From: Pseudomonadota bacterium
GTDB lineage: Bacteria > Desulfobacterota > Desulfobulbia > Desulfobulbales > SURF-16
Assembly: GCA_018816555.1 (NCBI GenBank)
Contig: JAHIVT010000019.1
Span: 1 to 56,962 of the forward strand
Direction: 5' to 3'
Length of the DNA stretch: 56,962 bases
Shown here: positions 42,890 through 56,962 of the stretch, piece by piece
Layout of the letters: each line of letters starts with the position of its first letter
How positions within the stretch are numbered: position 1 is the first letter of the stretch
Notes under the pieces: generated by a model
Databases searched by the model: none
The model's input: the letters and a program-made list of their open reading frames with translations, nothing else
Told to the model about the DNA's origin: nothing
Made by a program: the position numbers and the translations under genes

Positions 42890-44443
42890 ATGACCATCTG
42901 CCTGCGTCTGATCTCTGTAATTTTTTTCCTTTTCTTTCCCGCGTCGCTCTTCGCCGCACCGGCAACAGGAGAAATCACCCTTTTTTACAGTAATGATGTT
43001 CAAGGTGCAACCGCACCTTGTGGTTGCAGGCCGATGCAGTTGGGTGGTCTGTCCAAAAGAAAAACCCTCTTTCAGCAGATTGACGCCAAAGAGAACCGCG
43101 TTCTGTTTCTTGACGCGGGAGCATTGCTGTTTAACAAAAGAAAACTTCCTCCCGGTGAGTATCTCGATCTGGCAAAAATAAATGCCGAGGGAGTTGTGGA
43201 GTCCTATAATATCCTTGGCTATGAGGCTGTTGGGGTCTCCGTGTTTGATCTTGCCGGAGGAGTGGATTTTTTAAAGCAGTTAGAGAGACAATCAAATTTT
43301 ACCTGGCTCAGTGCCAACCTGTTCGACTGGCAAAACAGACAAAATCTTTTCCCCCCGTATATCATCAGGGAAAAAACAGGGCTGCGCATTGCCGTTATCG
43401 GCCTTACCGGAAACGGCGCGGCAAATATACCCCAGGATCGGGAGGAGGACTACCTCATCCTTCCCTGGCAGGATCTGTTGCCGAAAATCATGAAAGAAAT
43501 CAGTAACCAGGCCGATCTTGTCATCCTGTTATCCAGTTTGAGCCCCCAGGAAAACGAACAGATCAGCCGGGAATTTCCCCATGTCAATATCATTATTCAG
43601 GGGGGGATGGACGCCCATAAACAGGATATTTCACTGATAAACAACACATTGATCTGCCAGGCGGAAATGCAGGGGAAATACGTAGGTCATTTGCTTATCA
43701 AGTGGAAAAAAAACGGCATATGGATCGATGAAACAACAGATCCGGCCCTCATAAAAAAACAGGAGCTTGACCGGTTAACATGGCAGATAAGAAAGCTGGA
43801 AATTCAGGGAGACCCGCGTATTGTCTACAAGGACACCCCGGCAATTTTACAATCCTATGATAGACTTGTTGAACGGCTGAGAACCATTGAAGAGGAAATC
43901 AGCGATGCGAAACAGAACAAGAAGCAGTCTGCGGCAAGCTCCTTGTATAGTAATACTTTTTTAGCGATAGAGCCGACTATTCCCGCAGATTCTGCCATGG
44001 AAGAAATCATGAGGAAGACGAGGGACAAAATTAATGCTTTCGGCAGAAGCGGATTCCACGAGGGCACCCTGAGCGATTATGTGGGGAGTCATGCCTGTGT
44101 GAAATGTCATGCCGAAATAGGCGAGCGTTGGCAACAGACCCGGCATGCCCATGCCTTTGAAACCCTGGTTGAGAAAAAACAGCAATCCAACACCCACTGT
44201 CTTCCCTGCCACGTAACAGGCGTTTCCATTTTCGACCGACAACCATCCTTGGCTCTATCGCTCACTGACTCTTTGCACAACGTGGGCTGTGAAACCTGCC
44301 ATGGGCCGGGTATGGCCCATACGATAAATCCGGAAGAGGCAAAGCTGAACAAGCATCCTGACGCCTATCTCTGTCTTGAATGCCACAGCACGGAGCATGA
44401 TGATGCATTTCATTTCGAGCAAGACAGTAAACTTGTCCATTGA
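42890..44443 (+). CDS. 5'-nucleotidase/UshA-like protein fused to a tetraheme c-type cytochrome domain
   Basis: 517 residues from the ATG at 42890, which has a GGAG site 8 bases upstream and starts the signal peptide (ISVIFFLFFPASLFAAP). Residues about 25-300 follow the UshA/metallophosphatase layout (YSNDVQGATAPCGC, GGLSKRKTLF, VLFLDAGALL, WLSANLFDW, IAVIGLTG, IIIQGGMDAH), with several canonical metal His/Asn residues not obvious. The last 120 residues hold four CxxCH heme sites (CVKCH, CLPCH, CETCH, CLECH), like cytochrome c554-type proteins. Expected to be periplasmic. Catalysis is doubtful; a redox or sensing role is possible. Confidence 0.82.
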   Translation: MTICLRLISVIFFLFFPASLFAAPATGEITLFYSNDVQGATAPCGCRPMQLGGLSKRKTLFQQIDAKENRVLFLDAGALLFNKRKLPPGEYLDLAKINAEGVVESYNILGYEAVGVSVFDLAGGVDFLKQLERQSNFTWLSANLFDWQNRQNLFPPYIIREKTGLRIAVIGLTGNGAANIPQDREEDYLILPWQDLLPKIMKEISNQADLVILLSSLSPQENEQISREFPHVNIIIQGGMDAHKQDISLINNTLICQAEMQGKYVGHLLIKWKKNGIWIDETTDPALIKKQELDRLTWQIRKLEIQGDPRIVYKDTPAILQSYDRLVERLRTIEEEISDAKQNKKQSAASSLYSNTFLAIEPTIPADSAMEEIMRKTRDKINAFGRSGFHEGTLSDYVGSHACVKCHAEIGERWQQTRHAHAFETLVEKKQQSNTHCLPCHVTGVSIFDRQPSLALSLTDSLHNVGCETCHGPGMAHTINPEEAKLNKHPDAYLCLECHSTEHDDAFHFEQDSKLVH

Positions 44444-44475
44444 CAGGAAGCAAGGGAGAAAATAAGTTAGATCCC

Positions 44476-46590
44476 ATGGTTCAGAAATTTTTTAATAAAA
44501 AAAACCGCATCGGAAAAACGTCTCGCGAAATGCGGAAACAAGCGGAACAGTTGCTTGGCAAAAAGGCGATGATGGTTCAGGATATTGACCCGGAGGATAT
44601 CCCGGCGCTTATCCATGAACTGCAGGTCCATCAGATCGAACTTACCTTGCAGAACGAGGAACTGATTGCGTCCCAGCTTCAGCTTGAGGAATCCTGGGCC
44701 CGGTATATTTATCTCTATGATCACGCGCCGGTCGGTTATTTTACCTTTGACGGTAAAGGGCTGATATTGGCGGTAAATCTCACCGGATGCAGGCAGTTGG
44801 GATTGGAAAAAGAGGCCTTGCTCCAAAAACCTTTTACTTCCTTTATGAGCCAGGATGACAGTGATCTGTTTTATCTGCATTTAAAAAAAATATCTGCCAC
44901 AAAAAGCCGGCAGACCTGCACCCTCACGCTTTTTCGAGAAAAAGGCAAACCGTTTCATGTTCAGCTTGACAGTATTCCTTCAGTGCAAGGCACTGACGAA
45001 AATCTTCTCTGCCAGAGTACGGTCACCGACATCACCGAACGCAAGGAGTTGGCGGATGCACTGCAGGTTTCGGAAACTTTCTTCCGCCGTCTCTTTGAAG
45101 AGGCCAGAGAGGGAATAGTAATTCTCGATGCCGAGACCGGGCAGATATCCGATGTCAATCCTTTCATGATGGAAATGCTGGGCTATTCACACGAGGATTT
45201 TTTGGGCAAGAAACTCTGGGAAATCGGCCTGTTCAAGGATGTTGAGGCGTGGAGGGTTTCATTTGCGGAACTGCTGAGCAAAGGATGTGTCCGTTACAAC
45301 AATTTGCCGCTGGAGACCAAAAACGGCAGGATAATTGCCGTGGAATTTATCAGCAGTGTTTTTCTGGTCAATCATCATAAGGTGATTCAGTGCCGCATCC
45401 GCGATGTCACCAGACGCCAATTTGGGGCGGTTTCAACGCAAGAAGTTCATGACGGCACTGAACGACGCGTGCGGGAGCGGAGGTCCGTATTGCGGTCGAG
45501 CGATGAGCAGCTGGAGCAGGAGAGAAAAAGACACCGGCAGCTGGAGGAATCCCTGCTGCAGGCCCTGGCGGAAATCAAAACATTAAAAGACCGGCTGGTG
45601 ATCGAGAATTTATACTTTCGTCAGGAAAGCATAAAGAAACAGCAATTCGACCATATCATCGGCCAAAGCGATGGCCTCAAATATGTTCTCTATCGCGCGG
45701 AGCAGGTAGCGCCGATAGATACGACCGTGCTTATACTCGGCGAGACCGGCACGGGAAAGGAGCTGATCGCCGAGGTCATCCACAACTTAAGCCCCCGCAA
45801 GGATCGACCGCTGGTCACCGTCAACTGCGCAGCCCTGCCCGTCAATCTGATTGAGAGCGAATTGTTCGGCCGGGAGAAAGGGGCCTTTACCGGGGCCGAT
45901 ACCCGCCGGATGGGCCGGTTTGAGATCGCCAATGGCTCCACCCTGTGTCTGGACGAAATAGGGGAACTGCCCATGGAGGTTCAGGCCAAGCTGCTGCGGG
46001 TGATCCAGCATGGCGTGTTTGAGCGCTTGGGCTCATCGAAGAGCATCAAGGTCGATGTGCGCATCGTGGCCACCACCAATCGCAATCTTGATGAGGCGAT
46101 CCGCACCGGCAGGTTCCGGGAGGATCTTTTCTATCGGCTCAACGTTTTCCCCATCACGATCCCTCCCTTGCGGCAGCGAATCGACGATATTCCGCTGCTG
46201 GTTGAGGCCTTTGTAGAGCGATATGCCCGCAAAATGGGGAAACAGATCACCTCGATCCCCAAGGAAACGATGAAGGCATTGCAGGATTACCCCTGGCCCG
46301 GCAACATCAGGGAACTGGAAAGCATCATCGAACGGGCCGTGATCCTCTGCCGCGGGCCGATTCTGCAACTGGCGGATAAACTGCATATCTCGTCACTCCC
46401 CTTGCCTTCCCCAGGGGGAACCATGAAGGAGATGGAGCGCAGCCAGATCCTGCAGGCCCTGGCAAAAACCGGGTGGCGCATTGAAGGCAAGAACGGGGCT
46501 GCCAAGCTCCTGGGTCTTCACCCCAGCACCCTGCGGGCGAGAATGCACAAGCTCAGCATCGTGCGGCCTCATTCCGGATCGCCGGTTTAA
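44476..46590 (+). CDS. PAS-PAS sigma-54-dependent transcriptional activator
   Basis: 704 residues from the ATG at 44476; a TTG at 44440 overlapping the previous stop is the alternative. An N-terminal helical segment ELQVHQIELTLQNEEL leads into PAS1 (YLYDHAPVGYFTFDGKGLIL), then PAS2 (GIVILDAETGQISDVNPFMM), a coiled coil, the AAA+ domain with Walker A GETGTGKE, sigma-54 loop GAFTGAD and Walker B LCLDEIGELP, and a Fis-type HTH (GAAKLLGLHPSTLRARMHKL). There is no receiver domain, so PAS ligands or redox probably control it. Twelve bp after its stop lies the first of three 34-bp palindromes paired with sigma-54 promoters, its likely targets. Confidence 0.93.
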   Translation: MVQKFFNKKNRIGKTSREMRKQAEQLLGKKAMMVQDIDPEDIPALIHELQVHQIELTLQNEELIASQLQLEESWARYIYLYDHAPVGYFTFDGKGLILAVNLTGCRQLGLEKEALLQKPFTSFMSQDDSDLFYLHLKKISATKSRQTCTLTLFREKGKPFHVQLDSIPSVQGTDENLLCQSTVTDITERKELADALQVSETFFRRLFEEAREGIVILDAETGQISDVNPFMMEMLGYSHEDFLGKKLWEIGLFKDVEAWRVSFAELLSKGCVRYNNLPLETKNGRIIAVEFISSVFLVNHHKVIQCRIRDVTRRQFGAVSTQEVHDGTERRVRERRSVLRSSDEQLEQERKRHRQLEESLLQALAEIKTLKDRLVIENLYFRQESIKKQQFDHIIGQSDGLKYVLYRAEQVAPIDTTVLILGETGTGKELIAEVIHNLSPRKDRPLVTVNCAALPVNLIESELFGREKGAFTGADTRRMGRFEIANGSTLCLDEIGELPMEVQAKLLRVIQHGVFERLGSSKSIKVDVRIVATTNRNLDEAIRTGRFREDLFYRLNVFPITIPPLRQRIDDIPLLVEAFVERYARKMGKQITSIPKETMKALQDYPWPGNIRELESIIERAVILCRGPILQLADKLHISSLPLPSPGGTMKEMERSQILQALAKTGWRIEGKNGAAKLLGLHPSTLRARMHKLSIVRPHSGSPV

Positions 46591-46601: not shown

Positions 46602-46635
46602 CCTCAATATTTTGAGGAGCCGCCATATGTTGAGG
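46602..46635. promoter_or_regulatory. 34-bp palindromic upstream activator site, copy 1
   Basis: Two inverted CCTCAA/TTGAGG-type half-site pairs: CCTCAATATTTTGAGG, then 5 bases, then CCATATGTTGAGG. The same 34-bp layout recurs at 54064 and 56412. Each copy ends 98-103 bp before a sigma-54 -24 box, the usual enhancer distance. Binding by the activator encoded just upstream is inferred. Confidence 0.7.
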
Positions 46636-46737
46636 CCAGGCAGCTCCCTCTCACCCTTCTCTTCTGTTTGCGCCGTCTCTTCTCAATACTTGTCAGTAAA
46701 GGCTTTTCCCATATGTTTCCGCCTGCCTCCGGTTGCA

Positions 46738-46751
46738 GGCACACCTCTTGC
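46738..46751 (+). promoter_or_regulatory. Sigma-54 promoter 1 (twin small peptides)
   Basis: GGCACACCTCTTGC: GG at -24 (46738-46739), 10 bases, GC at -12 (46750-46751), matching the TGGCAC-N5-TTGC consensus closely. The predicted start is near 46763, about 50 bp before the first 21-residue peptide. Confidence 0.85.
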
Positions 46752-46815
46752 TTTGCTCTCTGGATGGTTATGGCGAAATTGAAAAAGCAATAAAGCAATA
46801 CTGAAGGAGGCAATT

Positions 46816-46881
46816 ATGGGGTTAGTAATCGGTATTTTGGTTGTCGTTATTCTCGTTATCGTGATAATGCGATTAACCTAG
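46816..46881 (+). CDS. 21-residue hydrophobic membrane peptide 1
   Basis: ATG at 46816, TAG at 46879-46881. AAGGAGG lies exactly 5 bases upstream. The peptide starts Met-Gly-Leu-Val-Ile-Gly, continues as an unbroken run of Val/Ile/Leu, and ends Met-Arg-Leu-Thr, so nearly the whole molecule is one membrane helix. Sixteen of 21 residues match peptide 2 (47068). The surrounding bases are also duplicated (AATACTGAAGGAGG before, TAGCGCACATGA after). Size and composition recall type I toxins (Ibs, about 19 residues) and small stress-induced membrane peptides. It is driven by the sigma-54 promoter at 46738. Confidence 0.7.
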   Translation: MGLVIGILVVVILVIVIMRLT

Positions 46882-46961
46882 CGCACATGAGGGTTCGGCA
46901 AAATTAAGGCCGTTGTAATAAAATAATGTCCGCATCCGGCTGGTCCAAACGGCACTCTTTT

Positions 46962-47054
46962 CAGTACCCCCCTTTGAGGGGTATAAAGAGCCGTAACGAA
47001 AAGGCTAAGAAAGCAGATGTTATTTCGTAACGACCCCTCAAAGGGGTAATACTG
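46962..47054. repeat. Large inverted repeat between the twin peptide genes (family E copy 1)
   Basis: Arms around CCCCCCTTTGAGGGGT (46966-46982) and ACCCCTCAAAGGGGTAATAC (47033-47052), preceded by CAGTA and followed by TG, can pair. Inside lies GCCGTAACGAAAA...TTATTTCGTAACG (46990-47032), which has a relative at 55305-55370. The right arm ends 3 bases before the ribosome site of peptide 2, so the stem could control its translation or protect the RNA. Confidence 0.7.
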
Positions 47055-47067
47055 AAAGGAGGTAATG

Positions 47068-47133
47068 ATGGAATTCGTAATCGGTGTTTTGGTTGTCGTG
47101 ATTCTCGTTCTCGTTATCATGCAGTTAACGTAG
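47068..47133 (+). CDS. 21-residue hydrophobic membrane peptide 2
   Basis: ATG at 47068 (an in-frame ATG at 47065 is too close to the ribosome site), TAG at 47131-47133. AGGAGG is 5 bases upstream, as in peptide 1. It differs from peptide 1 only at residues 2 (Glu for Gly), 3 (Phe for Leu), 7, 15 and 19 (Gln for Arg). The mostly conservative changes and kept length argue that both copies are translated and selected. It is probably read from the same sigma-54 transcript, with the large hairpin in between. Confidence 0.7.
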   Translation: MEFVIGVLVVVILVLVIMQLT

Positions 47134-47269
47134 CGCCCATGAAAGTCCGGCCAGGCAACATTCTTTCTCAACCGGCGGGCGGGCAAGGGATTTCTGAAGG
47201 GTGACGTCGTTTGCCGTCAGTCCGTTTTGCAGCAGGCTCTAAAGATGATGATCTCGACAAAAGTCCGTT

Positions 47270-47366
47270 TTCACCACAGAGCACACAGAGCACACAGAGA
47301 TCACAGAGAAAATATTTTTTATTTTCAGTAAGTTATCTCTGTTGGCTTTGTGCTCTCTGTGGTTAA
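47270..47366. repeat. Dispersed inverted repeat, family A copy 3
   Basis: Left arm TTCACCACAGAGCACACAGA with one extra CACAGAG unit, right arm CTTTGTGCTCTCTGTGGTTAA, so it is slightly longer (97 bp) and less perfect than copies 1 and 2. It lies 43 bp before the ABC transporter gene and may carry or disturb its promoter. Confidence 0.85.
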
Positions 47367-47409
47367 TTTTCAGTTTTTACGAATTTATCAAAGATGCGAT
47401 GAATAAGGT

Positions 47410-48090
47410 ATGCAGCTAGAAATCCTGAATCTGACAAAGCTCTATGATCAAAAAAGGGGTCTGCAGCCCACCAGTTTTGCCGTAAAAAAAGGCGAACTGA
47501 TCGCTGTTGTCGGTCATAACGGCGCCGGCAAATCCACTCTGCTGAAAATGCTGGCAAACTGGATTCTGCCGGACAGCGGTCAAGTCACGATTGACGGCAT
47601 CGATCTGAAGAACAGGACGGCTGTTGTTAAAAAAGTGGGTTTTGTTCCGGAAGTGCCCAATCTTTTTGATTTTTTCAGCGTTGAATACAATCTCAAACTC
47701 TTTGCCTTTCTCTTTCAAACTCCCTTTCTGCGGGTGGATGAGATCTTGCGAGAGTTCAATCTGCTTGCTTTTCGAAAAAACAAAATACAGGAACTGTCAA
47801 AGGGTTTAAAGCAAAGAGTGAACATTGGGCGCGCCCTGCTGGCGGACCCTCCGGTGCTCCTTTTTGACGAGCCGACATCAGGTCTGGACTTCGAGATGAC
47901 AAAAGAACTCTACCGGCTTTTGCACACTATCCATGCTGCCGGGAAAACAATCCTTTTCACTTCCCACCGGCCTGAGGAGATTAAAAGCCTGGCGACGCGC
48001 ATCATGGTGCTGCACAAAGGCAGTCTGGTCTTTGACGGATCTCCGCAGAAATATTTTCAATCCGAAGTTCATGAAAATCTCTACGCATGA
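47410..48090 (+). CDS. ABC transporter ATP-binding protein (ABC-2 exporter type)
   Basis: 226 residues. Walker A GHNGAGKST, Q-loop replaced by a region around VGFVPEVPNLFDFFSV, signature LSKGLKQR, Walker B LLFDEPTSGLD, and H-loop FTSHRPEEI. It groups by pattern with CcmA/NatA-like drug, Na+ or lipid exporters. It overlaps the permease gene by 4 bp and works with it. The substrate cannot be told. Confidence 0.92.
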   Translation: MQLEILNLTKLYDQKRGLQPTSFAVKKGELIAVVGHNGAGKSTLLKMLANWILPDSGQVTIDGIDLKNRTAVVKKVGFVPEVPNLFDFFSVEYNLKLFAFLFQTPFLRVDEILREFNLLAFRKNKIQELSKGLKQRVNIGRALLADPPVLLFDEPTSGLDFEMTKELYRLLHTIHAAGKTILFTSHRPEEIKSLATRIMVLHKGSLVFDGSPQKYFQSEVHENLYA

Positions 48091-49118
48091 TGATCAGAAA
48101 TATTTTAGCCCTCGCATTCAATGATTTAGCCATCGCCTTAAAGAATAAAACGATTTATCTCATTCTTTTTATTCCTCTTTTTGTTTTTGTTTCTTTAAAG
48201 TTGCTGGACCGGACCGACGTGGAAGTAAATAAAATCAGAATCGGTCTCCTGCAGCATTACGCCTATGCGCCCCAGATTGTGGGCAGCGTCAAGGCAGCTG
48301 AAAAAATCATTGAAGTTACCTGGGTGCAAAATGAAGAGGAAGGCACTCGTCTTTTGCAAGAAAAAAAAATAGACGGAGTTTTGCTGGGAAATGAAAAAGA
48401 ACCGGGCAGCCTTGCCCTCCTGGTTTTAAAAAAAGAGTCTCTCCCCACCCTTGCCATCGTGGAAAGTTTTTCAGCTTTGCAGAAAGCTGCGGAAGGAGGC
48501 AGTGCCAGTTGGATCACCGACATTAAACCGCTGCACGAGGGCGGTATTCAAAGGCAGACTTTGCCGACCTGGATTTTGATGCTTGTTCTGCTCGTCGGTT
48601 TCATAATTCTTCCGGCGCAAGTCGCCGAGGAAAAAGAAAAAAAGCTGCTCCTGGCGCTCCTACAGACCCCCATACGCGAGGTGCAATGGCTGATTGCCAA
48701 AGTAATCATGGGGATGGTTCTGACCATGATGGCGATCTTATTTCTCCATCTTTTGGGAAGATTTACTGTGGTCAATCTCTTCGACTATATCGCCTTCATC
48801 TTGGCAGGCAGTTTCTGTTTCAGCGCCTATGGGGTTTTCCTGGGTTTTCTCTGCCGCAATCAGGCCAGCGCCAGAACCATAGGGGTTCTCTTTTATCTGC
48901 CGCACCTTCTTCCTTCCGCGCTGTCCGATTTCTCGCAAAAATTGACCATTGTTGCGCCTCTGCTGCCGTCCTACCAATTTTATGAGCCGCTTAAATCCCT
49001 TCTGCTGGAAGACGGCAGGGCAGCGAACATGTCTTTTGAGTTGGTCTATTTATTTCTCGTGGGATCGTTTACCTTTTACCTTTCCTATTTATTGATGAAA
49101 AGACGCTGGTTGATGTGA
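48087..49118 (+). CDS. ABC-2 type permease
   Basis: 343 residues with the NatB/ABC-2 layout: one N-terminal helix (TIYLILFIPLFVFVSL), an extracytoplasmic domain of about 130 residues, then five helices (TWILMLVLLVGFIILPAQVA, MVLTMMAILFLHLLG, YIAFILAGSFCFSAYGVFLG, ending VYLFLVGSFTFYLSYLLM). EEKEKKLLLALLQTPIREVQ is the typical coupling helix after TM2. It forms the membrane part of the exporter with the preceding ATPase. The pair is flanked by family A repeats (47270 and 49143). Confidence 0.88.
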   Translation: MMIRNILALAFNDLAIALKNKTIYLILFIPLFVFVSLKLLDRTDVEVNKIRIGLLQHYAYAPQIVGSVKAAEKIIEVTWVQNEEEGTRLLQEKKIDGVLLGNEKEPGSLALLVLKKESLPTLAIVESFSALQKAAEGGSASWITDIKPLHEGGIQRQTLPTWILMLVLLVGFIILPAQVAEEKEKKLLLALLQTPIREVQWLIAKVIMGMVLTMMAILFLHLLGRFTVVNLFDYIAFILAGSFCFSAYGVFLGFLCRNQASARTIGVLFYLPHLLPSALSDFSQKLTIVAPLLPSYQFYEPLKSLLLEDGRAANMSFELVYLFLVGSFTFYLSYLLMKRRWLM

Positions 49119-49142
49119 TTATGGACCGCCAATTCGATAATA

Positions 49143-49183
49143 AAAAATTATTTCTCTGTGATTTCTGTGTGCTCTGTGGTGAA
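49143..49183 (-). repeat. Family A repeat, half copy
   Basis: Only one arm is present, in minus orientation: read in reverse it gives TTCACCACAGAGCACACAGA, then AATCACAGAGAAATAATTTT, the left half of the full element. The other arm is lost or was never present. It closes the ABC cassette on the right side. Confidence 0.75.
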
Positions 49184-49288
49184 AAAAGGTTTGCTCCGGA
49201 TTGAAGGATACTTTGCTCCCCCGGAATATTTTTTTGCCAAGCCAAATGGATTCATGTATTGTTAGGGAAGCAAGTATAGGAGACGATT

Positions 49289-51010
49289 ATGCACATAGGG
49301 AATCTCGATGAATTGCGCAAACGGGCAGTAGAAAAGCTTGGCGCCGGAAACCACGGCTTTTCAGAGAATTTCCAAGATGGATTCCGGGCGGTGCTTCATG
49401 AGCTCCAGACCTATCAGATCGAGCTGGAATTGCAGAATGAGGAGCTTCGCCGGGTTCAGGAAGAACTTGTGGAAACCCGCGACCAGTATGTTGATCTCTA
49501 TGATTTTGCTCCAGTCGGCTATCTCACCCTCGGCGATAAGAATCTGATCGAAGAGGTAAATCTGACCATGGCCGACCTGCTGGGCGAAGAAAGGAAGTCG
49601 CTCCTCGGCCGGCCCTTTTCCCGCTTCATTTTTCCTGAAGATCAGGACATCTTCTATAAACACCTCAGAGAACTTAGTGGTACGAAAAGTCGGCGGGTAT
49701 GCGATCTGCGGATGCAGAGAAAGAATGGTGACTGGTTCTGGGCCAGGCTGGAATGTGTTCCCAAGGAAAAACGCCATAAGAGCGGGATGCGACTGCGAAT
49801 AGCCGTCAATGACATCACGGAGGCAAAGCGCCTGGAAAACGAAATCATCAAGGCTAAAAAGCTTGAAGCCACGGCACTGCTCGCCGGCGGCATAGCCCAT
49901 GACTTCAATAATCTTCTCGCGGTAATTCTGGGTAACCTTGATCTCGCCAAGGAAGATATGCTGCTTGGCCGGTCAATTGCCAAAGGATTGCAGACTGCGC
50001 GGGAAGCGTGTCTGAGCGCCGGAAATCTGACCAGGAAGTTCCTTACTTTTTCAGCAGGCGGTGAACCTTTTAAAGAACCTACCCCTGCCGAGGCGTTCAT
50101 TACAGACGCGGTGAGTCTTGCGCTTGCAGGATCAAATGTCAATTCCGAAAGTTCATTCCCGGAAGGTTTGTGGCCTGTTGTGGTTGATGCCGGTCAGATG
50201 ACTCAGGCAATTGCTAATGTGATCAGCAACGCAAGGGAAGCCATGCCCCAGGGAGGCGTGATTCGCATTCGCGCTGAAAATGTCGACTCAATCCCTGGGA
50301 AAAACCGGGAATTGCCGGGCAATCAGGATGCAAAGTATGTCAAGGTTTCAATCCAGGATCAAGGAGTGGGCATACCCGAGGATATTCTCCCCAAGGTGTT
50401 TGACCCTTATTTTTCATCCAAGGAGATGGGACAGGAAAAAGGAATGGGCCTGGGGCTCACGGTTGCCTATTCCATATTAAAAAAGCATGGAGGTTTTATA
50501 GATATTGCCTCGCAACCAAATATCGGCACGACGGTCTCGATGTATCTGCCTGCCACCGACAAACCGATCGTCTCCTTGGAGACCAGGACCGAACATACCC
50601 CTCTGGTGAACAACAGAATTCTGGTCATGGATGATGAGGATTTGATAAGAATGGTAACCCGTAATATGCTGGAAAGATTGGATTATGACGTTGAAGTGGC
50701 ATGCGATGGGGAAGAAGCCGTCGAGCTCTATTTGCATGCGCTACTTGAAGGGTCGCCTTTTGGCTCGGTTATTCTCGATCTGACCATCAAGGGTGGCATG
50801 GGGGGCAGGGAAACCATCAAACGGCTTAAGGAAATCGATCCGCATGTCAGAGCCATTGTTGTCAGCGGCTATTCCAATGACCCGGTTATGGCAAACTTCA
50901 AGGAGTATGGTTTTTTTGATGCACTCCATAAACCATATCGATTGGAAGATCTTGAGAGATCCCTGCGGGCTATCGCCCACGCTTGTGGAAAGCAGTTTTC
51001 CCGGGTATAA
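49289..51010 (+). CDS. PAS hybrid histidine kinase with C-terminal receiver
   Basis: 573 residues. A helical N-terminus (ELQTYQIELELQNEELRR) leads into a PAS domain (LYDFAPVGYLTLGDKNLIEE), HisKA with GGIAHDFNNLLAVILGN (phospho-His), HATPase (ISNAREAMPQGGVIRI, DQGVGIPEDILPKVFDPYFS, GLGLTVAYSILKKHGG), and a receiver with VMDDEDLIR, phospho-Asp in VILDLTIKGGMGG and Lys in LHKPYRLEDL. It is cytosolic, with no membrane helix. The PAS module is clearly related to PAS1 of the sigma-54 activator at 44476. The output partner is not adjacent; phosphorelay to another regulator is likely. Confidence 0.93.
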   Translation: MHIGNLDELRKRAVEKLGAGNHGFSENFQDGFRAVLHELQTYQIELELQNEELRRVQEELVETRDQYVDLYDFAPVGYLTLGDKNLIEEVNLTMADLLGEERKSLLGRPFSRFIFPEDQDIFYKHLRELSGTKSRRVCDLRMQRKNGDWFWARLECVPKEKRHKSGMRLRIAVNDITEAKRLENEIIKAKKLEATALLAGGIAHDFNNLLAVILGNLDLAKEDMLLGRSIAKGLQTAREACLSAGNLTRKFLTFSAGGEPFKEPTPAEAFITDAVSLALAGSNVNSESSFPEGLWPVVVDAGQMTQAIANVISNAREAMPQGGVIRIRAENVDSIPGKNRELPGNQDAKYVKVSIQDQGVGIPEDILPKVFDPYFSSKEMGQEKGMGLGLTVAYSILKKHGGFIDIASQPNIGTTVSMYLPATDKPIVSLETRTEHTPLVNNRILVMDDEDLIRMVTRNMLERLDYDVEVACDGEEAVELYLHALLEGSPFGSVILDLTIKGGMGGRETIKRLKEIDPHVRAIVVSGYSNDPVMANFKEYGFFDALHKPYRLEDLERSLRAIAHACGKQFSRV

Positions 51011-51026
51011 ACGAGGAGTAACTGCT

Positions 51027-51096
51027 CAGGTTGCTTGGGCCTTTAGGTTTGCAGTCTTGCAGTTCAGGTTGTTTAGGCCTTTAGGTTTGTAGTCTT
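51027..51096. repeat. Two 32-bp direct repeats
   Basis: CAGGTTGCTTGGGCCTTTAG continues TTTGCAGTCTT (51027-51058) and recurs with four differences at 51065-51096, a 38-bp period. It lies between the hybrid kinase and the CheB-CheR fusion. With only two units it is not a CRISPR array. Confidence 0.75.
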
Positions 51097-51154
51097 TTAG
51101 CAAAAAACCTAAACCCCTTCAGACTATCGACCTTTTTAGTTGCCGGAGTTGAAC

Positions 51155-53860
51155 ATGCCCCCCAGAAAAGAGAAAAAATCCACGATCCACACCCCCGGGG
51201 CGACTGCCGGGACAAAAAAGGCCGTACCCCCCCAAAATAAAACCAAGGCCAAGGCCTTGCCGGCTTCCGGCGAAGACGCCTTCCGGCCCAGGGGAACACT
51301 GCCGATTGTCGGAATAGGCGCCTCGGCCGGCGGCCTGGAGGCCTTTGAAGCATTTTTTACCGCCATGCCGGCTGACGCAGGCCTTGCCTTTATTGTGGTG
51401 CCTCATCTCGATCCAACCCATGGCAGCATCATGCCCGAACTGATCCAGAAGCGCACGGCGATGCCGGTCCTGCAGATCAAGGACGGGATGCGGGTGGAGC
51501 CGGACACCGTGTATGTCGTGCCGCCCAACCAGAACCTCTCCATCCTGAACGGCACCCTGCAGCTCATGGAACTGAGCCGGCCCCGCGGCGTCAATCTGCC
51601 GATTGACAGCTTTCTCCGGGCACTGGCCCGGGACCAGGGGGAAAATGCGGTGGGCATCATTCTCTCAGGCACCGGCAGCGACGGCACCCTGGGAGTAAAA
51701 GCGATCAAGGGCGAGGCCGGCATGGTGATGGTGCAGGATGAAGAGTCCGCCAAATATGACGGCATGCCGCGAAGCGCCATTGCCACGGGGCTTGCCGACT
51801 ATGTCCTGCCGCCCGGCGAAATGCCGGGGCAACTGATCAAATACCTGCGACATGCGGTCCATGAAAACACGGCAACGGTTCTGGCCGATGACGGGAGGAT
51901 GCCCGACACCCTGCAGAAAATCTGTATCCTCCTGCGCACCCGCACCGGACACGATTTTTCCCTTTACAAAAAAAACACGATCCAGCGGCGCCTGGAAAGG
52001 AGGATGCACGTCCACCAGATCGACGTGGTCAAGGACTACGTTACCTATCTCCAGAAAAGCGAGGTTGAAGCTGATATCCTGTTCAAGGAACTGTTGATCG
52101 GGGTGACCAATTTTTTTCGGGACGCTCAAGCCTTTGAGGCGCTCCGGGGAAAAATCCTGCCCGAACTGCTCAAGGAGAAACGGGACGGCGATACACTGCG
52201 AGTCTGGGTTGCCGGCTGCAGCAGCGGCGAGGAGGCCTATTCCGTTGCCATCCTCCTGCAGGAGGTCATGGAGGATCAGGGGCGCCGCTTCAACGTCCAG
52301 ATATTCGGCACCGATATTGACGAGGACGCCGTGGCTGCGGCCCGGGCCGGGATTTATCCGGCCAGCATCATTGGTGACGTGAGCGCTGCACGCCTGAAGC
52401 GCTGGTTCGTCAAGGAGGATAAGCAGTACCGGATTAAAAAATCGATCCGGGAGATGCTGGTCTTTGCCGAGCAGAGTATTATCAAGGACCCGCCGTTTAC
52501 CAAACTGGATCTGATCTGCTGCCGCAATCTGCTCATTTACCTCGGCCCGGAATTACAGAAGAGGCTCATACCCCTTTTCCACTACAGTCTGAAACCGGAT
52601 GGTATTCTTTTTCTCGGTTCCTCGGAAGCCATTGGGCAGGCCCTGGACCTCTTCGCCATGGTGGACAAGAAATGGAAAATATACAGACGCAAGCCGTTAT
52701 CCGCGGCCTCCGCCCGGCGGGGGTTGGAACTTCCGGTGGCTCCCGTCATCAGGGAGAGTGCTCAACCACAACTTCCGGAACCCATCAGAAAGGCCGAAGA
52801 GCTGAGCGCCTTCCAGCTGGTCGAAACCATTCTGCAGCAGGTCAACGCCCCTCCCTGCGTCATTATCGACGAGGCGAGCAACATCATCTATGTCCATGGA
52901 CGCACCGGCAGGTATCTGGAACCGGCCATCGGCAAAGTCAGCGTTAATATCCTGGATATGGCGCTTCCCGGTTTGCAAATGGATCTGGCGGCCGCAATCC
53001 GCGGGGTCGCGGCCAACCAGCATGAATGTATCCGTCAAGGAGTATCCATTGAGCATGACGGAGGTCATCTGTCCATTGATCTGATCGTGAAGCCGGTTCT
53101 GGAACACAGAGCCTTGCGCGGCCTGATGATGGTTATTTTTAAGGAGCCCCCCCCTCCCACGAAAAAAAAGGGCGCCTTGCAACAGTCAGGGATAGGCACA
53201 AAAAACCCTTCTGTCGAGACGCTCGAACAGGAGTTGCGGTACACCAAGGAAAATCTGCAAACCACCATCGAAGAGCTGGAGACCGCCAATGAAGAGCTTA
53301 AATCCACCAATGAAGAGTTGCAGTCAACCAATGAGGAGTTGCAGAGCACCAATGAAGAGCTGGAAACCTCCAAGGAGGAACTCCAATCCCTGAACGAGGA
53401 AGCCGCCACGGTCAACGCTGAACTGCAGAGCCGCATCGACGAGCTGTCTATAACCAATGATGACATGAAAAACCTGCTCGACAGCACCCAGATTGCCACT
53501 ATTTTCCTTGATTTCGATCTGTGCGTGAGAAGGTTCACCCCGAAAGCCGTTGACATCATCCCCTTGTCCGGCATCGACGCCGGCCGCCCCATCAGGCATT
53601 TTGCGACTGCTTTGATCGACACCGACCTGGCGGGGGATGCCCACGAAATTCTCCAGAATTTGGGTATGAAGGAAAAGGAGGTGCGGAGTAAGGGCGGCGC
53701 CGTTTACCGCATGCGGATCCGGCCCTATCGCACGGTGAACAATGTGATTGACGGGGTGGTGATCACCTTCGAGGATATTACCGCACTCAAAGAGGCCCAG
53801 GCAGCGCTTAACACATTGAATGCGGAACTTGAACAACGGGACCGGCAACGTATCTCATAA
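51155..53860 (+). CDS. CheB-CheR-PAS fusion protein
   Basis: 901 residues from the ATG at 51155, which has GGAG 7 bases upstream; an in-frame TTG at 51140 is less likely. After a Lys/Pro-rich N-terminus comes CheB methylesterase: GIGASAGGLEAF (Ser), VVPHLDPTHGS (His), SGTGSDGTLGVKAI (Asp). CheR methyltransferase follows with GVTNFFRDAQAFE, VWVAGCSSGEEAYS, FGTDIDEDAVAAAR and CCRNLLIYL. Next is a PAS-like segment, a long coiled coil of E-E-L-x-S-T-N repeats, and a last PAS. No kinase or receiver domain follows, unlike many CheBR-PAS-HK proteins. It may couple receptor methylation to a PAS input. Confidence 0.92.
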   Translation: MPPRKEKKSTIHTPGATAGTKKAVPPQNKTKAKALPASGEDAFRPRGTLPIVGIGASAGGLEAFEAFFTAMPADAGLAFIVVPHLDPTHGSIMPELIQKRTAMPVLQIKDGMRVEPDTVYVVPPNQNLSILNGTLQLMELSRPRGVNLPIDSFLRALARDQGENAVGIILSGTGSDGTLGVKAIKGEAGMVMVQDEESAKYDGMPRSAIATGLADYVLPPGEMPGQLIKYLRHAVHENTATVLADDGRMPDTLQKICILLRTRTGHDFSLYKKNTIQRRLERRMHVHQIDVVKDYVTYLQKSEVEADILFKELLIGVTNFFRDAQAFEALRGKILPELLKEKRDGDTLRVWVAGCSSGEEAYSVAILLQEVMEDQGRRFNVQIFGTDIDEDAVAAARAGIYPASIIGDVSAARLKRWFVKEDKQYRIKKSIREMLVFAEQSIIKDPPFTKLDLICCRNLLIYLGPELQKRLIPLFHYSLKPDGILFLGSSEAIGQALDLFAMVDKKWKIYRRKPLSAASARRGLELPVAPVIRESAQPQLPEPIRKAEELSAFQLVETILQQVNAPPCVIIDEASNIIYVHGRTGRYLEPAIGKVSVNILDMALPGLQMDLAAAIRGVAANQHECIRQGVSIEHDGGHLSIDLIVKPVLEHRALRGLMMVIFKEPPPPTKKKGALQQSGIGTKNPSVETLEQELRYTKENLQTTIEELETANEELKSTNEELQSTNEELQSTNEELETSKEELQSLNEEAATVNAELQSRIDELSITNDDMKNLLDSTQIATIFLDFDLCVRRFTPKAVDIIPLSGIDAGRPIRHFATALIDTDLAGDAHEILQNLGMKEKEVRSKGGAVYRMRIRPYRTVNNVIDGVVITFEDITALKEAQAALNTLNAELEQRDRQRIS

Positions 53861-53937
53861 GCGCGGGATATATTGAACGCGACCTGTTGAATTACGATAA
53901 CTTTCTGAAATTAAATAATATTTTTAAGCTACCCGCA

Positions 53938-54046
53938 GCTTGTTTCCCGAGAATTTAGAATACAGAAGTCAGGAGCCGGAATAAAACCTGATAAAATAAC
54001 TATTCCCAATTCCAGCTCCTGACTCCTGAATGCCAATTTCCAGCTG
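53938..54046. repeat. Dispersed inverted repeat, family B copy 3
   Basis: ACAGAAGTCAGGAGCCGGAA and CCAGCTCCTGACTCCTGAAT flank an AT-rich loop beginning TAAAACCTGATAAAATAA. The left flank GCTTGTTTCCCGAGAAT matches the flank of copy 2. It sits between the CheB-CheR gene and activator site 2 and may insulate the two. Confidence 0.8.
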
Positions 54047-54063
54047 AACTCCCTCTCCATTCC

Positions 54064-54097
54064 CCTCAGCAATATGTGGATCCACCACATATTGAGG
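54064..54097. promoter_or_regulatory. 34-bp palindromic upstream activator site, copy 2
   Basis: This is the most symmetrical of the three copies: CCTCA, then AATATGTGG, a GATCC-centred core, and CCACATATTGAGG. Its right end is 99 bases before the -24 GG of promoter 2. Confidence 0.7.
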
Positions 54098-54196
54098 CCG
54101 GATAACTGCTGTCAGCTTTTTCCCCTGTTCTCGCTGTTTCGCTTAATCCATTGTTAATAAATGATTTATTTTAATCTTCGTCAGCATTTGCCTGGG

Positions 54197-54210
54197 GGCA
54201 TGCCTCTTGC
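54197..54210 (+). promoter_or_regulatory. Sigma-54 promoter 2 (BON/DUF3309/SpoIIAA-like/CsbD genes)
   Basis: GGCATGCCTCTTGC: GG at 54197-54198, GC at 54209-54210, exact N10 spacing. The predicted start is near 54222, leaving a leader of about 277 bases before the BON gene. Confidence 0.82.
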
Positions 54211-54421
54211 TCATGAGCTTATGCATGAGTCTGGTCAGCATGCCCTCACATGAGGGTGTCTGCTGAGAAACGTGAAGACTTGTCCCAGATGATCGCCTCG
54301 ATGCGCAACTCCATTCGGCAAAAGAAAATTGCAGGAGAAAAAAATGCGGAAAAGTTGTCTGCCTCCCCTCCGGAAATGCCAACCGCGTCACATGTACCGA
54401 CGGAGGTTTCGTCGGGAGGAA

Positions 54422-54446
54422 GCCTCTCCCCTGCAAAGGGGGAGGC
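54422..54446. other. GC-rich hairpin in the leader of the BON gene
   Basis: GCCTCTCCCC (54422-54431) pairs with GGGGGAGGC (54438-54446) around a TGCAAA loop, 52 bases before the BON ATG. No T run follows, so it is not a standard terminator; an RNA stability or translation element is possible. Confidence 0.55.
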
Positions 54447-54498
54447 TGGCGGCAACGGTGGGGGAAAAAATAACAAAATATGCAAGGAGAAATCATTT

Positions 54499-55302
54499 AT
54501 GAAAACACTGTATCATTTGGCTTTGATGGTAGTTGCCATTGCTCTGCTGGTAGCCGGCGGACCTGTTCTCGCGTCTGCGACCGGAACGGATGAGGGGATC
54601 GAATCAGCGGCCAGGAATTCGTATGTTTTCAAGACATACCTCAAGGACGATGCCATTCAAATCGTGTCCAGGGATGGTGTCGTCACCTTGACAGGGACAG
54701 TCGCCGAAGAGCCCCATAAATCTCTGGCCCAGGAGACCGTGGCAAACCTGCCCGGAGTCAAAAGCGTGGAAAACCGGCTGGAAATCAAAGGTGAACCCGT
54801 TGCCGAGAATTTAGATACGTGGATCAGCATGAAAGTGAAAACCTCGCTGTTGTTTCATCGTAACCTGAGCACCAGCAAGACTGACGTTCAAGTCAAGGAT
54901 GGGGTTGTCACCTTGCGGGGTGAAGCCGCCAGTCCGGCTCAAATGGACCTGACGACTCAATACGTCAAGGATGTCGAAGGCGTTAAAGACGTACAAAATG
55001 AGATGACCGTATCACAGACACCCGGCAATCCGGACGAAAAAACCATGGGTGAAAAAATGGGTGACGTGGTCGAATCAATTGATGACGCATCCATCACCGC
55101 CCTGGTCAAGATGACGTTACTCTATCATCGCTCTACCAGCGCACTCCACACCAATGTTGAAACGAACAATGGCATGGTAACCTTGGAAGGCAAGGCAAAA
55201 AACGCGGCCGAAAAGGATTTAGTCACCAAATACGTGCAGGATGTTTACGGCGTGAAAGGCGTGGCCAACAACATATCAATCGAAGAGTCCAAGGCCAATT
55301 AG
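54499..55302 (+). CDS. Periplasmic triple-BON-domain protein
   Basis: 267 residues from the ATG at 54499, with AGGAGA upstream and a signal peptide (LALMVVAIALLVAGGPVLAS). Three BON domains follow at about 33-97, 107-175 and 197-263, each with the V-x-x-x-G-V-V-T-L-x-G core (SRDGVVTLTGTV, VKDGVVTLRGEA, TNNGMVTLEGKA) and a V-x-G-V-K-x-V ending. BON proteins such as OsmY bind phospholipid or outer-membrane proteins under osmotic stress. It is the first gene after sigma-54 promoter 2. Confidence 0.9.
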   Translation: MKTLYHLALMVVAIALLVAGGPVLASATGTDEGIESAARNSYVFKTYLKDDAIQIVSRDGVVTLTGTVAEEPHKSLAQETVANLPGVKSVENRLEIKGEPVAENLDTWISMKVKTSLLFHRNLSTSKTDVQVKDGVVTLRGEAASPAQMDLTTQYVKDVEGVKDVQNEMTVSQTPGNPDEKTMGEKMGDVVESIDDASITALVKMTLLYHRSTSALHTNVETNNGMVTLEGKAKNAAEKDLVTKYVQDVYGVKGVANNISIEESKAN

Positions 55303-55304
55303 GA

Positions 55305-55370
55305 GCCGTTACGAAAGAGCGCTGCTTTCTCAGCTAAGCAGTCAGCTGAGGACATTATTTTGTAACGCGG
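55305..55370. repeat. Hairpin repeat, family E copy 2
   Basis: CCGTTACGAAA near 55306 and TTTTGTAACGCGG (55358-55370) are inverted, with a second nested pair TCAGCT/AGCTGA inside. The ends match the inner part of the repeat at 46990-47032 (GCCGT-ACGAAA and TTATTT-GTAACG). Both copies lie downstream of a sigma-54-driven small gene. Confidence 0.6.
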
Positions 55371-55457
55371 CTTAGGCTGGAGGACCGTTTCCCCGGCTCC
55401 GTCGCGTGACTGAACCCGAGCCGGCAGGGAGCCAGTGCAATACAAAGGAGGAACGTT

Positions 55458-55607
55458 ATGATCGGAAGGATTTTGATCATTGTCGTGATTCTGATGCTGG
55501 TGGGTACGTTACCCGCCTGGCCTCACAGCCGAGGGTGGTCTTACTACCCGAGCGGCGGCTTGATCCTGCTGACCCTGATCATACTGCTGCTGTTAGGCCC
55601 GATATAA
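55458..55607 (+). CDS. DUF3309 small membrane protein
   Basis: 49 residues with a strong AAGGAGG site. It begins MIGRILIIVVILMLVGTLPA, continues WPHSRGWSYYPSGG and ends in a second hydrophobic segment, the exact layout of DUF3309 (two short helices around LPxWPHSRxWGYxPSGG). The function is unknown. These proteins are often found beside CsbD, BON and other stress genes, as here. It is probably on the transcript from sigma-54 promoter 2. Confidence 0.88.
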   Translation: MIGRILIIVVILMLVGTLPAWPHSRGWSYYPSGGLILLTLIILLLLGPI

Positions 55608-55646
55608 TTGAGGCCGAGCAGGGTCACTCTGAACGAGGAAAATTCC

Positions 55647-56027
55647 ATGACCTTTACCTGCTCCATTGACCACGATCAAGGCTACATGGTGGCGATCGCC
55701 TCTGGTCAAATCGGGTGGGAGGAAGTCCGGGCTCATCTACTCGCCGAGCGCCTTGCCGGCGGCCTGAGTTACCGCGAGTTAATCGACGCTCGCACCGCGA
55801 CGCCGACCTGGTCTTCAGCCCAGGCCCGCGAAATCATTTCGCTGCTCACCAACTTCGGCCGCAGATCCGTGCTCGGCCCTACGGCGGTGGTGGTCGCCAG
55901 TGAATTTGGCTTTGGGATGATACGCATGCTTGAGATTCTGCTTGAGGAGGTGTGCCTCGTCAAGCCGTTTCACGACTATGACGCTGCCGAGCAATGGCTC
56001 CGGGACCTGCGGGAGACCGGCAGCTGA
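55647..56027 (+). CDS. SpoIIAA/STAS-fold-like protein
   Basis: 126 residues from the ATG at 55647, with GAGGA upstream; a frame to 55608 adds 13 residues. A small alpha/beta domain: strand YMVAIASGQIGWEEVRAHLL, central YRELIDARTATPTWSS, then SVLGPTAVVVASEFGFGMIR and VKPFHDYDAAEQWLRDL. The order of strands and helices is that of SpoIIAA-like (STAS/SEC14) proteins common in proteobacterial stress clusters. No obvious phosphorylatable Ser motif. The partner is unknown. Confidence 0.6.
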   Translation: MTFTCSIDHDQGYMVAIASGQIGWEEVRAHLLAERLAGGLSYRELIDARTATPTWSSAQAREIISLLTNFGRRSVLGPTAVVVASEFGFGMIRMLEILLEEVCLVKPFHDYDAAEQWLRDLRETGS

Positions 56028-56145
56028 CAAGTAAACAGAAAAGTATCTCATCTCCTTCAATCCACAGCTGGAAAGGAGAAATATTACGGCGTTGATGCAA
56101 TGAGTGATTGACGCTGGTCAACCAAGAGTAGACAAGGATAATAAC

Positions 56146-56325
56146 ATGAAATCAAGCACAAAAGACAAAACAGAAGGCAAGATGCATCAGGTGAAAGGCA
56201 AGATTAAAGAGATTGTCGGGAAAATAGCCAAGAAGCGTGATCTGGAAGCCGAGGGCAAAGTTGAAAATTTAGAGGGAAAAGTCCAGGAAAAGATCGGCCA
56301 GATTGAAGAAGTTGTGGAACAATAG
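56146..56325 (+). CDS. CsbD family stress protein
   Basis: 59 residues from the ATG at 56146, with AAGGA upstream. The peptide is almost all charged helix: KDKTEGKMHQVKGKIKEIVG then KIAKKRDLEAEGKVENLEGK and VQEKIGQIEEV, the K-G-x-x-K-E-x-x-G-K pattern of CsbD. CsbD is a general stress protein (sigma-B regulon in Bacillus) of unknown action. It is the last gene of the second sigma-54 group before activator site 3. Confidence 0.9.
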   Translation: MKSSTKDKTEGKMHQVKGKIKEIVGKIAKKRDLEAEGKVENLEGKVQEKIGQIEEVVEQ

Positions 56326-56411
56326 TATCCAGGCGCAGAGAAAATAGGATTTTGGGGTCGTTTGTGTTGAATCATCATGTCCGACCTCAGGACCAATTTC
56401 CATCTTTTTTT

Positions 56412-56445
56412 CCTCAACATTTTGAGGTGCCACCATATATGGAGG
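56412..56445. promoter_or_regulatory. 34-bp palindromic upstream activator site, copy 3
   Basis: CCTCAACATTTTGAGG, then GTGCCA-type spacer bases, then CCATATATGGAGG. It aligns base for base with copy 1 without gaps, and the next bases also match (TCAAGCAGATCCC versus CCAGGCAGCTCCC), so conservation extends past the palindrome. Confidence 0.7.
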
Positions 56446-56542
56446 TCAAGCAGATCCCGCCAGCCTTCTTTTTTGTTCCTTCCTCTGAGTAATCCACTGT
56501 TATTAAAGACTAATTTTGTCTCGGTGCATATTGCCGTCTGCA

Positions 56543-56556
56543 GGCATGTTTCTTGC
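56543..56556 (+). promoter_or_regulatory. Sigma-54 promoter 3
   Basis: GGCATGTTTCTTGC: GG at 56543-56544, GC at 56555-56556. It starts 97 bases after activator site 3. It reads through a phosphatase relic into the partial gene at 56778. Confidence 0.82.
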
Positions 56557-56567
56557 CATTACCTTTT

Positions 56568-56753
56568 AATGAGCTCAGAGTCCAGGGCTGGACAAAGGAC
56601 GAAGCCATCGCGGAAATGACCCAGGGCGGGTTCGGCTTCCATGAAGTGTGGCAGAACCTTGTTGAGTACCTGCGCGATCTCGACGTGGAAAAGCTGAAAC
56701 GACAGGCATTTCCTTCGCTCGTTCATCTTCCGCCCACTAACTTCAATCGTTAG
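56568..56753 (+). pseudogene. 3' remnant of a dual-specificity/tyrosine phosphatase-like gene
   Basis: The frame reads ELRVQGWTKDEAIAEMTQGG followed by FGFHEVWQNLVEYLRDLDVE, the usual C-terminal end of bacterial DSP-type phosphatases (x-x-x-Q-G-W-x-x-E-A-A-x-x-E-M-x-x-G-x-F-G-F-H). The catalytic C-x5-R loop and all upstream sequence are absent. The frame enters directly from the sigma-54 promoter, and its first possible start overlaps the -12 box. I read it as a truncated gene captured behind the promoter. Confidence 0.6.
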
Positions 56754-56777
56754 TTTTCTGTAAGGAGAAAAAATTAA

Positions 56778-56962
56778 ATGAAAATTTCAGACTGGCTGGA
56801 TGAAAAGGAAGCAGAGAGCGGGGATGTATCGCAAATCATATTGCCTACAGATATGTCTTATGATGAGGTCCCGGATGAAGCTATTTATTTCAAAGAGATT
56901 AATCCTTGCGGGTTTCTCTGTAACGAGAATCATCCCTTTTCCAAGGTCGAACGCTTTGGCCA
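56778..56962 (+). CDS. Hypothetical protein (partial, runs off the right edge)
   Basis: 61 complete codons are visible from the ATG at 56778, with TAAGGAG 10 bases upstream. The sequence is acidic: MKISDWLDEKEAESGDVSQI, then PTDMSYDEVPDEAIYFKEIN, then PCGFLCNENHPFSKVERFG. The C-G-x-x-C and H-P motifs suggest a possible metal or thiol site. I do not recognise the function. It is the likely true target of sigma-54 promoter 3. Confidence 0.65.
   Translation, partial: MKISDWLDEKEAESGDVSQIILPTDMSYDEVPDEAIYFKEINPCGFLCNENHPFSKVERFG

Follow-up and report, generated by a model that had tools for sequence, protein, structure and literature searches.

OsmY-like BON-domain proteins, CsbD and the universal stress protein Usp are typical members of the general stress regulons of RpoS and SigB, and sigma-54 controls envelope or surface genes in the PspF phage-shock and PrsK/PrsR PEP-CTERM systems. 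For Desulfovibrio vulgaris, regulons of sigma-54 and its enhancer-binding proteins (EBPs) have been described (Kazakov et al. 2015, PMC4641369), and passages of that work list "envelope stress" and "general stress" regulons; parts of PMC12316311 belong to the further related literature. Here, we describe a 56,962-nucleotide stretch of DNA (the window), which is the entire contig C53 (JAHIVT010000019.1) of the 4.93-Mb, 183-contig genome of a Desulfobulbales bacterium (GCA_018816555.1; source genome, G000). The window carries three copies of a 34-bp upstream activating sequence (UAS), each followed at nearly constant distance by a sigma-54 box of the form GG-N10-GC. Very probably, these elements serve as enhancer and promoter sites of a single sigma-54 regulon run by an adjacent one-component activator, as indicated at the level of sequence by the element, its spacing, the box, linkage to the activator gene, gene content and the presence of rpoN.

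All genes and sites of the window given here lie on the forward strand. UAS 1, 2 and 3 occupy 46602-46635, 54064-54097 and 56412-56445, exactly where the initial annotation had placed them, and the boxes GGCACACCTCTTGC (46738-46751), GGCATGCCTCTTGC (54197-54210) and GGCATGTTTCTTGC (56543-56556) follow at the 102, 99 and 97 bases it had counted. Its view of each UAS as a single palindrome holds for the 34-bp length, but the layout is more accurately that of two 16-bp dyads in tandem, set 18 bp apart from centre to centre (46602-46617 and 46620-46635 in UAS 1). A degenerate consensus of the 34-mer, allowing up to three mismatches, matched the window six times, once per strand at each of the three sites, where shuffled sequence would give 0.03 matches, and the fixed distance is kept in relatives, so the pairing is indeed unlikely to arise by chance. 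The box pattern alone (TGGCAY-N5-TTGC, two mismatches) was not enriched, with 107 matches found against 133 expected; the signal therefore lies in the pairing and the fixed distance. A chance match of element and box was rejected on the shuffle expectation, the spacing and the genome-wide counts. For wider searches, we used a sequence-only profile of the whole 150-nucleotide unit (R1), built from 47 curated sites that remained when two reverse-strand readings were dropped from 49 raw sites in fetched clusters. The distance from the end of the UAS to the GG was 96-102 nucleotides in 46 of the raw and 45 of the kept sites, with 80-115 allowed. With R1, units 1 to 3 scored 96.0, 88.3 and 87.7 bits, the first being among the sites that built the profile.

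Across the source genome, the consensus without mismatch occurs four times, at the three window sites and at C28:18766 before a universal stress protein gene. Three of these have a canonical box and the fourth a shortened spacer; the palindrome is thus not scattered at random without boxes, a pattern that the initial annotation had named as evidence against a regulon. R1 (E<=0.001) found seven units, all on C53 (three) and C28 (9177, 12726, 18766 [partial] and 21670), and "local" proved an apt word for their arrangement: they are confined to two contigs, and the relative G010 has six units within ~24 kb of one contig. Nine of the ten R1 matches in G053 lie on one contig, C42. The profile scan of genome and relatives that had been proposed found element and box conserved at a near-fixed distance. 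With up to two mismatches, the consensus matched 10 of 22 family genomes, but what it matched in G004 and G012 resembles related coding sequence and not an element. Of the 193 order genomes, 95 matched a looser half-element-plus-box pattern, in many only once or twice and apparently within genes; the pattern also marked dense clusters in some, and the reversed-pattern control gave zero or one match per listed genome. R1 itself matched 28/193 order genomes (20 at E<=1e-10) and 21/297 phylum genomes (18 at E<=1e-10), a patchy distribution across both. Outside the order, 27 matches were obtained at E<=1e-8, and in all 25 inspected the box follows the UAS after 97-100 nucleotides, although R1 contains the box and these matches are no independent test of it.

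The proposed regulator is encoded directly upstream of UAS 1, at 44440-46590 (TTG start tentative), and the element begins 11 bases 3' of its stop codon. This EBP comprises two PAS domains, an AAA+ domain (Pfam Sigma54_activat, 2.9e-70) with a GAFTGA motif placed by alignment at residues 481-486, and a C-terminal Fis-type helix-turn-helix (HTH_8, 1.4e-7); the Pfam scan gave no receiver domain. Of 31 orthologues, 27 are followed by the element at a distance of at most 300 bp. Sixteen of these come from the order sample, in which 18 of 193 genomes have an orthologue at E<=1e-199 and an R1 match lies no more than 300 bp 3' of the coding match in all but G149 and G153; five of the 16 adjoining elements (G025, G141, G138, G117 and G100) are weak, at 20.8-26.3 bits. 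The other 11 are found among 13 out-of-order orthologues (G000 and G005 set aside), where the element lies 30-153 bp downstream; in G238 and G273 it lies at 1.4 and 2.1 kb, and counting the truncated gene of G361 brings the out-of-order linkage to 12/14. In the phylum sample, all 15 of 297 genomes with the activator (E<=1e-200) fall among the 18 with the element at E<=1e-10 (Fisher 1.2e-22, a value that ignores relatedness). Three genomes with the element are not among the 15: in G361 a contig edge cuts the activator gene to a fragment, which the element follows by 35 bp, and G310 and G330 have no activator at that threshold.

In a tree of the AAA+/HTH parts (41 rows), all 29 linked activators group in one 32-row clade with support of 98/98, and only G370, G149 and G153 in that clade lack an element adjoining the gene or within 2.2 kb. 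The tree leaves out six activator rows (L101, L105, L106, L110, L112 and L276), and two of the genomes concerned, G040 and G003, hold elements; its label "none" refers to the position beside the gene, since G048 and G063 hold elements elsewhere. N-terminal halves vary: the ten that were scanned contain either one or two PAS domains, and many out-of-order members align only over the AAA+/HTH part. A more distant activator in G172 (C224:6538-7737; E 4.6e-122) has a weak element of 25.2 bits just 3' of it and may belong to a diverged branch of this circuit. Membership in a named activator family was rejected, as among the 25 best of 41 NCBIfam matches the scores stay below the cut-offs: 391 against 830 for FhlA, 373/529 for NifA, 348/476 for NorR, 319.4/502.6 for PrsR, 295/444 for PspF and 293/760 for ZraR. 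Among the matches listed, the seven activator relatives with the best E-values share 43-53% identity, and six come from records of Desulfonema, Desulfosarcina, Desulfobacteraceae or Deltaproteobacteria, and none of the 80 listed loci holding such relatives had an R1 match at E<=0.5. Each of five genomes searched, including the source genome, has one rpoN gene (Sigma54_DBD); in G053 it lies ~7 kb from the activator (C42:84043 and C42:92226) on the element-rich contig. The element, its spacing and the box are conserved elsewhere; together with rpoN and linkage to one clade of GAFTGA activators, this conservation across genomes supports the sigma-54 regulon of the initial annotation, to which the activator directly upstream, an IHF-like site and the second cluster on C28 are additions.

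The UAS most common outside the order is CCTCAATATATTGAGG-TT-CCACCAAATATTGAGG, whose two 16-bp dyads have a nearly perfect first member; mean dyad match is 0.88 and 0.64 in out-of-order sites, compared to 0.68 and 0.66 in the 47 in-order sites. The spacer holds a motif resembling a site for integration host factor (IHF). In units 2 and 3, it lies 53 nucleotides 5' of the box, as TAATCCATTGTTA (54144-54156; one mismatch to YAANNNNTTGATW) and TAATCCACTGTTA (56490-56502; two mismatches); the position in unit 1 (46683-46695) is weak, with three mismatches. YAANNNNTTGATW is the reverse complement of the IHF consensus WATCARxxxxTTR as printed in a passage of PMC3897727. In out-of-order sites, YAANNNNTTGTTA, one letter from YAANNNNTTGATW, stands 53-54 nucleotides before the GG. 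The commonest form, TTGTTA, departs from TTGATW. The best match with up to two mismatches fell at -53 or -54 in 18 of the 47 sites, and 17 of the 25 out-of-order sites have one at -56 to -52, compared to 4% of shuffles, figures that overstate independence as the sites share ancestry.

We propose that the activator binds the two tandem dyads as two or more dimers, its C-terminal part recognizing the motif CCTCAANATNTTGAGG at a position centred ~140 bp upstream of the start site; that it would bind the UAS at all is suggested by linkage and co-occurrence. IHF or a similar bend could then fold the ~100-bp spacer, so that the GAFTGA-bearing AAA+ ring might contact RNA polymerase-sigma54 at the GG-N10-GC box and open the promoter. 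The cytosolic PAS domains would read a signal, perhaps relayed by the PAS-kinase encoded downstream, and the output would be operons for membrane miniproteins and envelope or osmoprotective functions. DNA binding, IHF use, the signal and a stress role are what we infer from these sequences, and the circuit may represent a sigma-54 envelope/osmotic, perhaps general, stress response.

Downstream of unit 1, the window encodes two 21-residue membrane peptides. The first (46816-46881) has a ribosome-binding site and differs from the first peptides of relatives mostly by synonymous changes (synonymous plus other: 5+1 for G010, 8+3 for G005 and 6+1 for G021). Against second peptides, changes are not mostly synonymous (4+5, 4+6 and 5+5) but are 5+1 for G010. 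The second peptide (47068-47133) lies in a 96-nucleotide direct duplication (46804-46899 and 47056-47151, 82% identical) that spans the twins. An ABC transporter ATPase (47410-48090; Pfam ABC_tran), putatively on the same transcript, and an ABC-2 permease (48087-49118; ABC2_membrane_3) follow, and an ATPase of this kind also lies 3' of the peptides in G010 and G021 and of a single peptide in G005. The gene pair is flanked by CACAGAG-rich inverted repeats (47268-47326 and 49136-49185; 33-43 nucleotides, 91% complementary) and resembles a repeat-bounded insert. Further on are a PAS-histidine kinase-receiver protein (49289-51010) and a CheB-CheR-PAS protein (51140-53860), both identified by domain scan and putative members of the operon. 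A homologue of the former (67% identical over 323 residues) begins 64 nucleotides after the box in G039, directly under an element, so this sensor kinase may belong to the regulon, and so may the window copy. The CheB-CheR-PAS gene contains a repeat of period 21 nucleotides, or seven residues (53231-53398), which probably encodes a coiled coil.

Unit 2 precedes an OsmY-like protein with three BON stretches (54499-55302; NCBIfam OsmY 88.5 bits, below the cut-off of 174), a DUF3309 membrane miniprotein (55458-55607; 5.1e-17), a 126-residue protein (55647-56027) and a CsbD-like protein (56146-56325; Pfam 2.4e-15). The 126-residue protein had been called SpoIIAA-like, a naming that family searches did not uphold, as neither Pfam nor NCBIfam gave a match at E<=0.01. 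An in-frame extension before the BON gene (54250-54327) looks like the remnant of an ABM-type gene, sharing 58% identity over 26 residues with a protein encoded below an element of G089 and 46% with a Pfam-ABM protein of G010. Behind unit 3, an uncharacterized gene is cut by the contig end (56778-56962, start only); over 61 residues, its product shares 79% identity with that of a gene that follows an element in G053. A short open reading frame (ORF) at 56553-56753, with no Pfam match, overlaps the box of unit 3 and so cannot be read whole from that promoter; it may be the tail of a phosphatase-like gene.

In relatives, genes 3' of elements encode a BON lipoprotein, DUF5670, LapA, ABM, Usp, FtsH, YtxH, DUF948, an AI-2E transporter, OmpA proteins, ice-binding-like and other PEP-CTERM proteins, LTXXQ, Cpn10, an ATP-synthase beta-type protein, DUF3096, a DUF3185-like protein, Thivi_2564 and TreT trehalose synthase, as well as C-type lectin and OmpA/VWA proteins. 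CsbD, DUF3309, DUF5670-like, DUF3096, YtxH, FtsH and AI-2E transporters recur outside the order. Across 12 genomes picked because they carry the regulon, an element lies no more than 6 kb upstream on the same strand for 8/9 CsbD, 9/11 DUF3309 and 23/35 BON entries (the last list collapsed by hand to 35 proteins, a split frame in G089:C78 being counted once). Seven of these genomes have CsbD, seven DUF3309 and 11 BON, and all eight BON domain matches of the source genome lie on C28 and C53. Because targets include OsmY-like BON, CsbD, Usp, FtsH, trehalose synthase and a chaperonin, a stress role is suggested; the envelope or osmotic role proposed in the initial annotation fits this gene content, with annotation as its basis. 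The seven units on two contigs are therefore best read as a putative clustered envelope/osmotic stress regulon.

Several observations weigh against a single regulon under this activator. The order sample is looser than the phylum sample: a strong element (E<=1e-10) is present in only 12 of 18 activator genomes and 8 of 20 strong-element genomes have no activator at E<=1e-199 (p 4.6e-10 for the co-occurrence), and G019, G028, G049 and G105 have no match even at 1e-120, in a search that scored only 3-5 candidates per genome. Broken assemblies may explain some of these absences; G048 has a 73% activator fragment at a contig edge. Counted over the whole spacer, the IHF-like motif shows only a modest excess in the 47 sites (32 against 24.8 shuffled, up to two mismatches). 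Twelve of the 35 BON entries lie outside 6 kb, and for nine of these the contig has no listed element; some sites precede unrecognized or seemingly unrelated ORFs (e.g., L079 in G028 and the first L073 site in G056); and many target families are of no known function. Finally, the usp site of the source genome (C28:18766; L032:10767) has a spacer ~50 nucleotides shorter and no clean -12 element. G018 shares the UAS before usp with such a spacer and an altered -12 region, and G019 has the same shortened unit followed by different sequence. At the usp site of G021 the full length is kept with TG in place of GG, and the canonical form precedes usp in G053 and G040 and, in G010, an ABM gene and then usp.

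These absences bear on an alternative hypothesis, in which the 34-mers are bound by another protein and a different activator acts at the boxes. The four order genomes noted above and the many activator-like genes per genome (dozens of first-look candidates each) would fit such an arrangement, but the element lies just 3' of the activator in 27/31 orthologues, the linked activators form one clade and the constant distance from element to box suggests a looping contact; we regard this hypothesis as improbable. Rather less improbable, though still unlikely, is that the sigma-54 regulon is real and its output serves to build the cell surface or a biofilm, in the manner of PEP-CTERM control, with CsbD and BON as accessories. 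PEP-CTERM, C-type lectin, ice-binding-like and OmpA/VWA proteins are indeed among the targets, and sigma-54 is argued in passages of PMC3162934 to control the bacterial exterior in general. The targets that recur outside the order are, however, CsbD, DUF3309 and the other families named above, and with a score of 319.4 the activator falls short of the PEP-CTERM response regulator model, whose cut-off is 502.6.

That the unit is a dispersed repeat (of the repetitive extragenic palindromic or miniature inverted-repeat transposable element kind) carrying a box by happenstance is hardly credible, despite several similar 150-nucleotide units per genome (seven here, ten in G053) and other inverted repeats in the region: the spacer diverges in sequence at constant length, and the units, which are clustered and low in number, are found in more than one order and stand mostly before gene families that recur. 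A repeat element was rejected on the diverging spacer and this recurrence. Scarcely any weight falls on the activator-adjacent element being an RNA hairpin or terminator of the activator gene. In its favour are the palindromic form, the start 11 bases 3' of the stop codon and the presence of same-strand genes 203 and 86 bases ahead of UAS 2 and UAS 3, respectively, but a terminator would have no need of a fixed distance to a GG-N10-GC box. The terminator scan made no call and Rfam gave no match in the window, on which grounds an RNA element was rejected.

Within the preferred reading of a sigma-54 regulon under the adjacent activator, we speculate, with more doubt than confidence, that in carrier lineages the circuit is the general stress response, replacing an RpoS/SigB-type alternative sigma factor; equally tentatively, PAS-bearing input halves that differ between lineages could feed into a conserved AAA+/HTH output half. 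Patchy occurrence (18/297 phylum and 20/193 order genomes at E<=1e-10) weakens this idea. In the 12 regulon genomes, no gene reaches the proteobacterial RpoS cut-off (best 294.6 against 378.7), and sigma-70-family paralogues below it exist, so replacement of RpoS is only possible. Whatever its breadth, the circuit would supply a specific operator, a regulator and a set of genes for a probable stress regulon of bacteria about whose stress control little is known, and a common regulatory setting for DUF3309, DUF5670, DUF3096, Thivi_2564 and the 21-residue peptides. The near-fixed spacing over dozens of natural variants, together with the shortened form, is also a data set for DNA looping by EBPs.

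The operator was not found in the passages of PMC4641369 on D. vulgaris regulons, and neither operator, regulon nor sigma-54 control of a CsbD/BON/DUF3309 set was found in the open-licence papers searched, one of which mentions DUF3309. Unlike the RpoS and SigB regulons, the present one would depend on sigma-54 and an ATP-driven activator, and with respect to the PspF and PrsK/PrsR systems, the difference is an activator that has no receiver domain and scores below the cut-offs of both the PspF and PrsR models. As in the D. vulgaris regulons described in parts of PMC4641369, the UAS lies at least 100 bp upstream of the sigma-54 promoter, the activator carries GAFTGA and the EBP gene adjoins its targets, as is often the case there. 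In contrast, the stress EBPs of D. vulgaris named in those parts are two-component response regulators (DVU1419, DVU3305 and DVU3381) where here a one-component PAS protein is found, and the UAS-promoter distances given in the same passages vary, with four cases above 300 bp, where here they are near-fixed. The D. vulgaris orp operons under DVU2106 and IHF, as set out in parts of PMC3897727, similarly combine palindromic EBP sites (orp1, -131) with IHF sites between EBP site and promoter; their genes, operator and activator are different, and their need for IHF is experimental where here there is a motif. Provisionally, the parts of this circuit are classical, and its regulator, operator and regulon appear to be undescribed.

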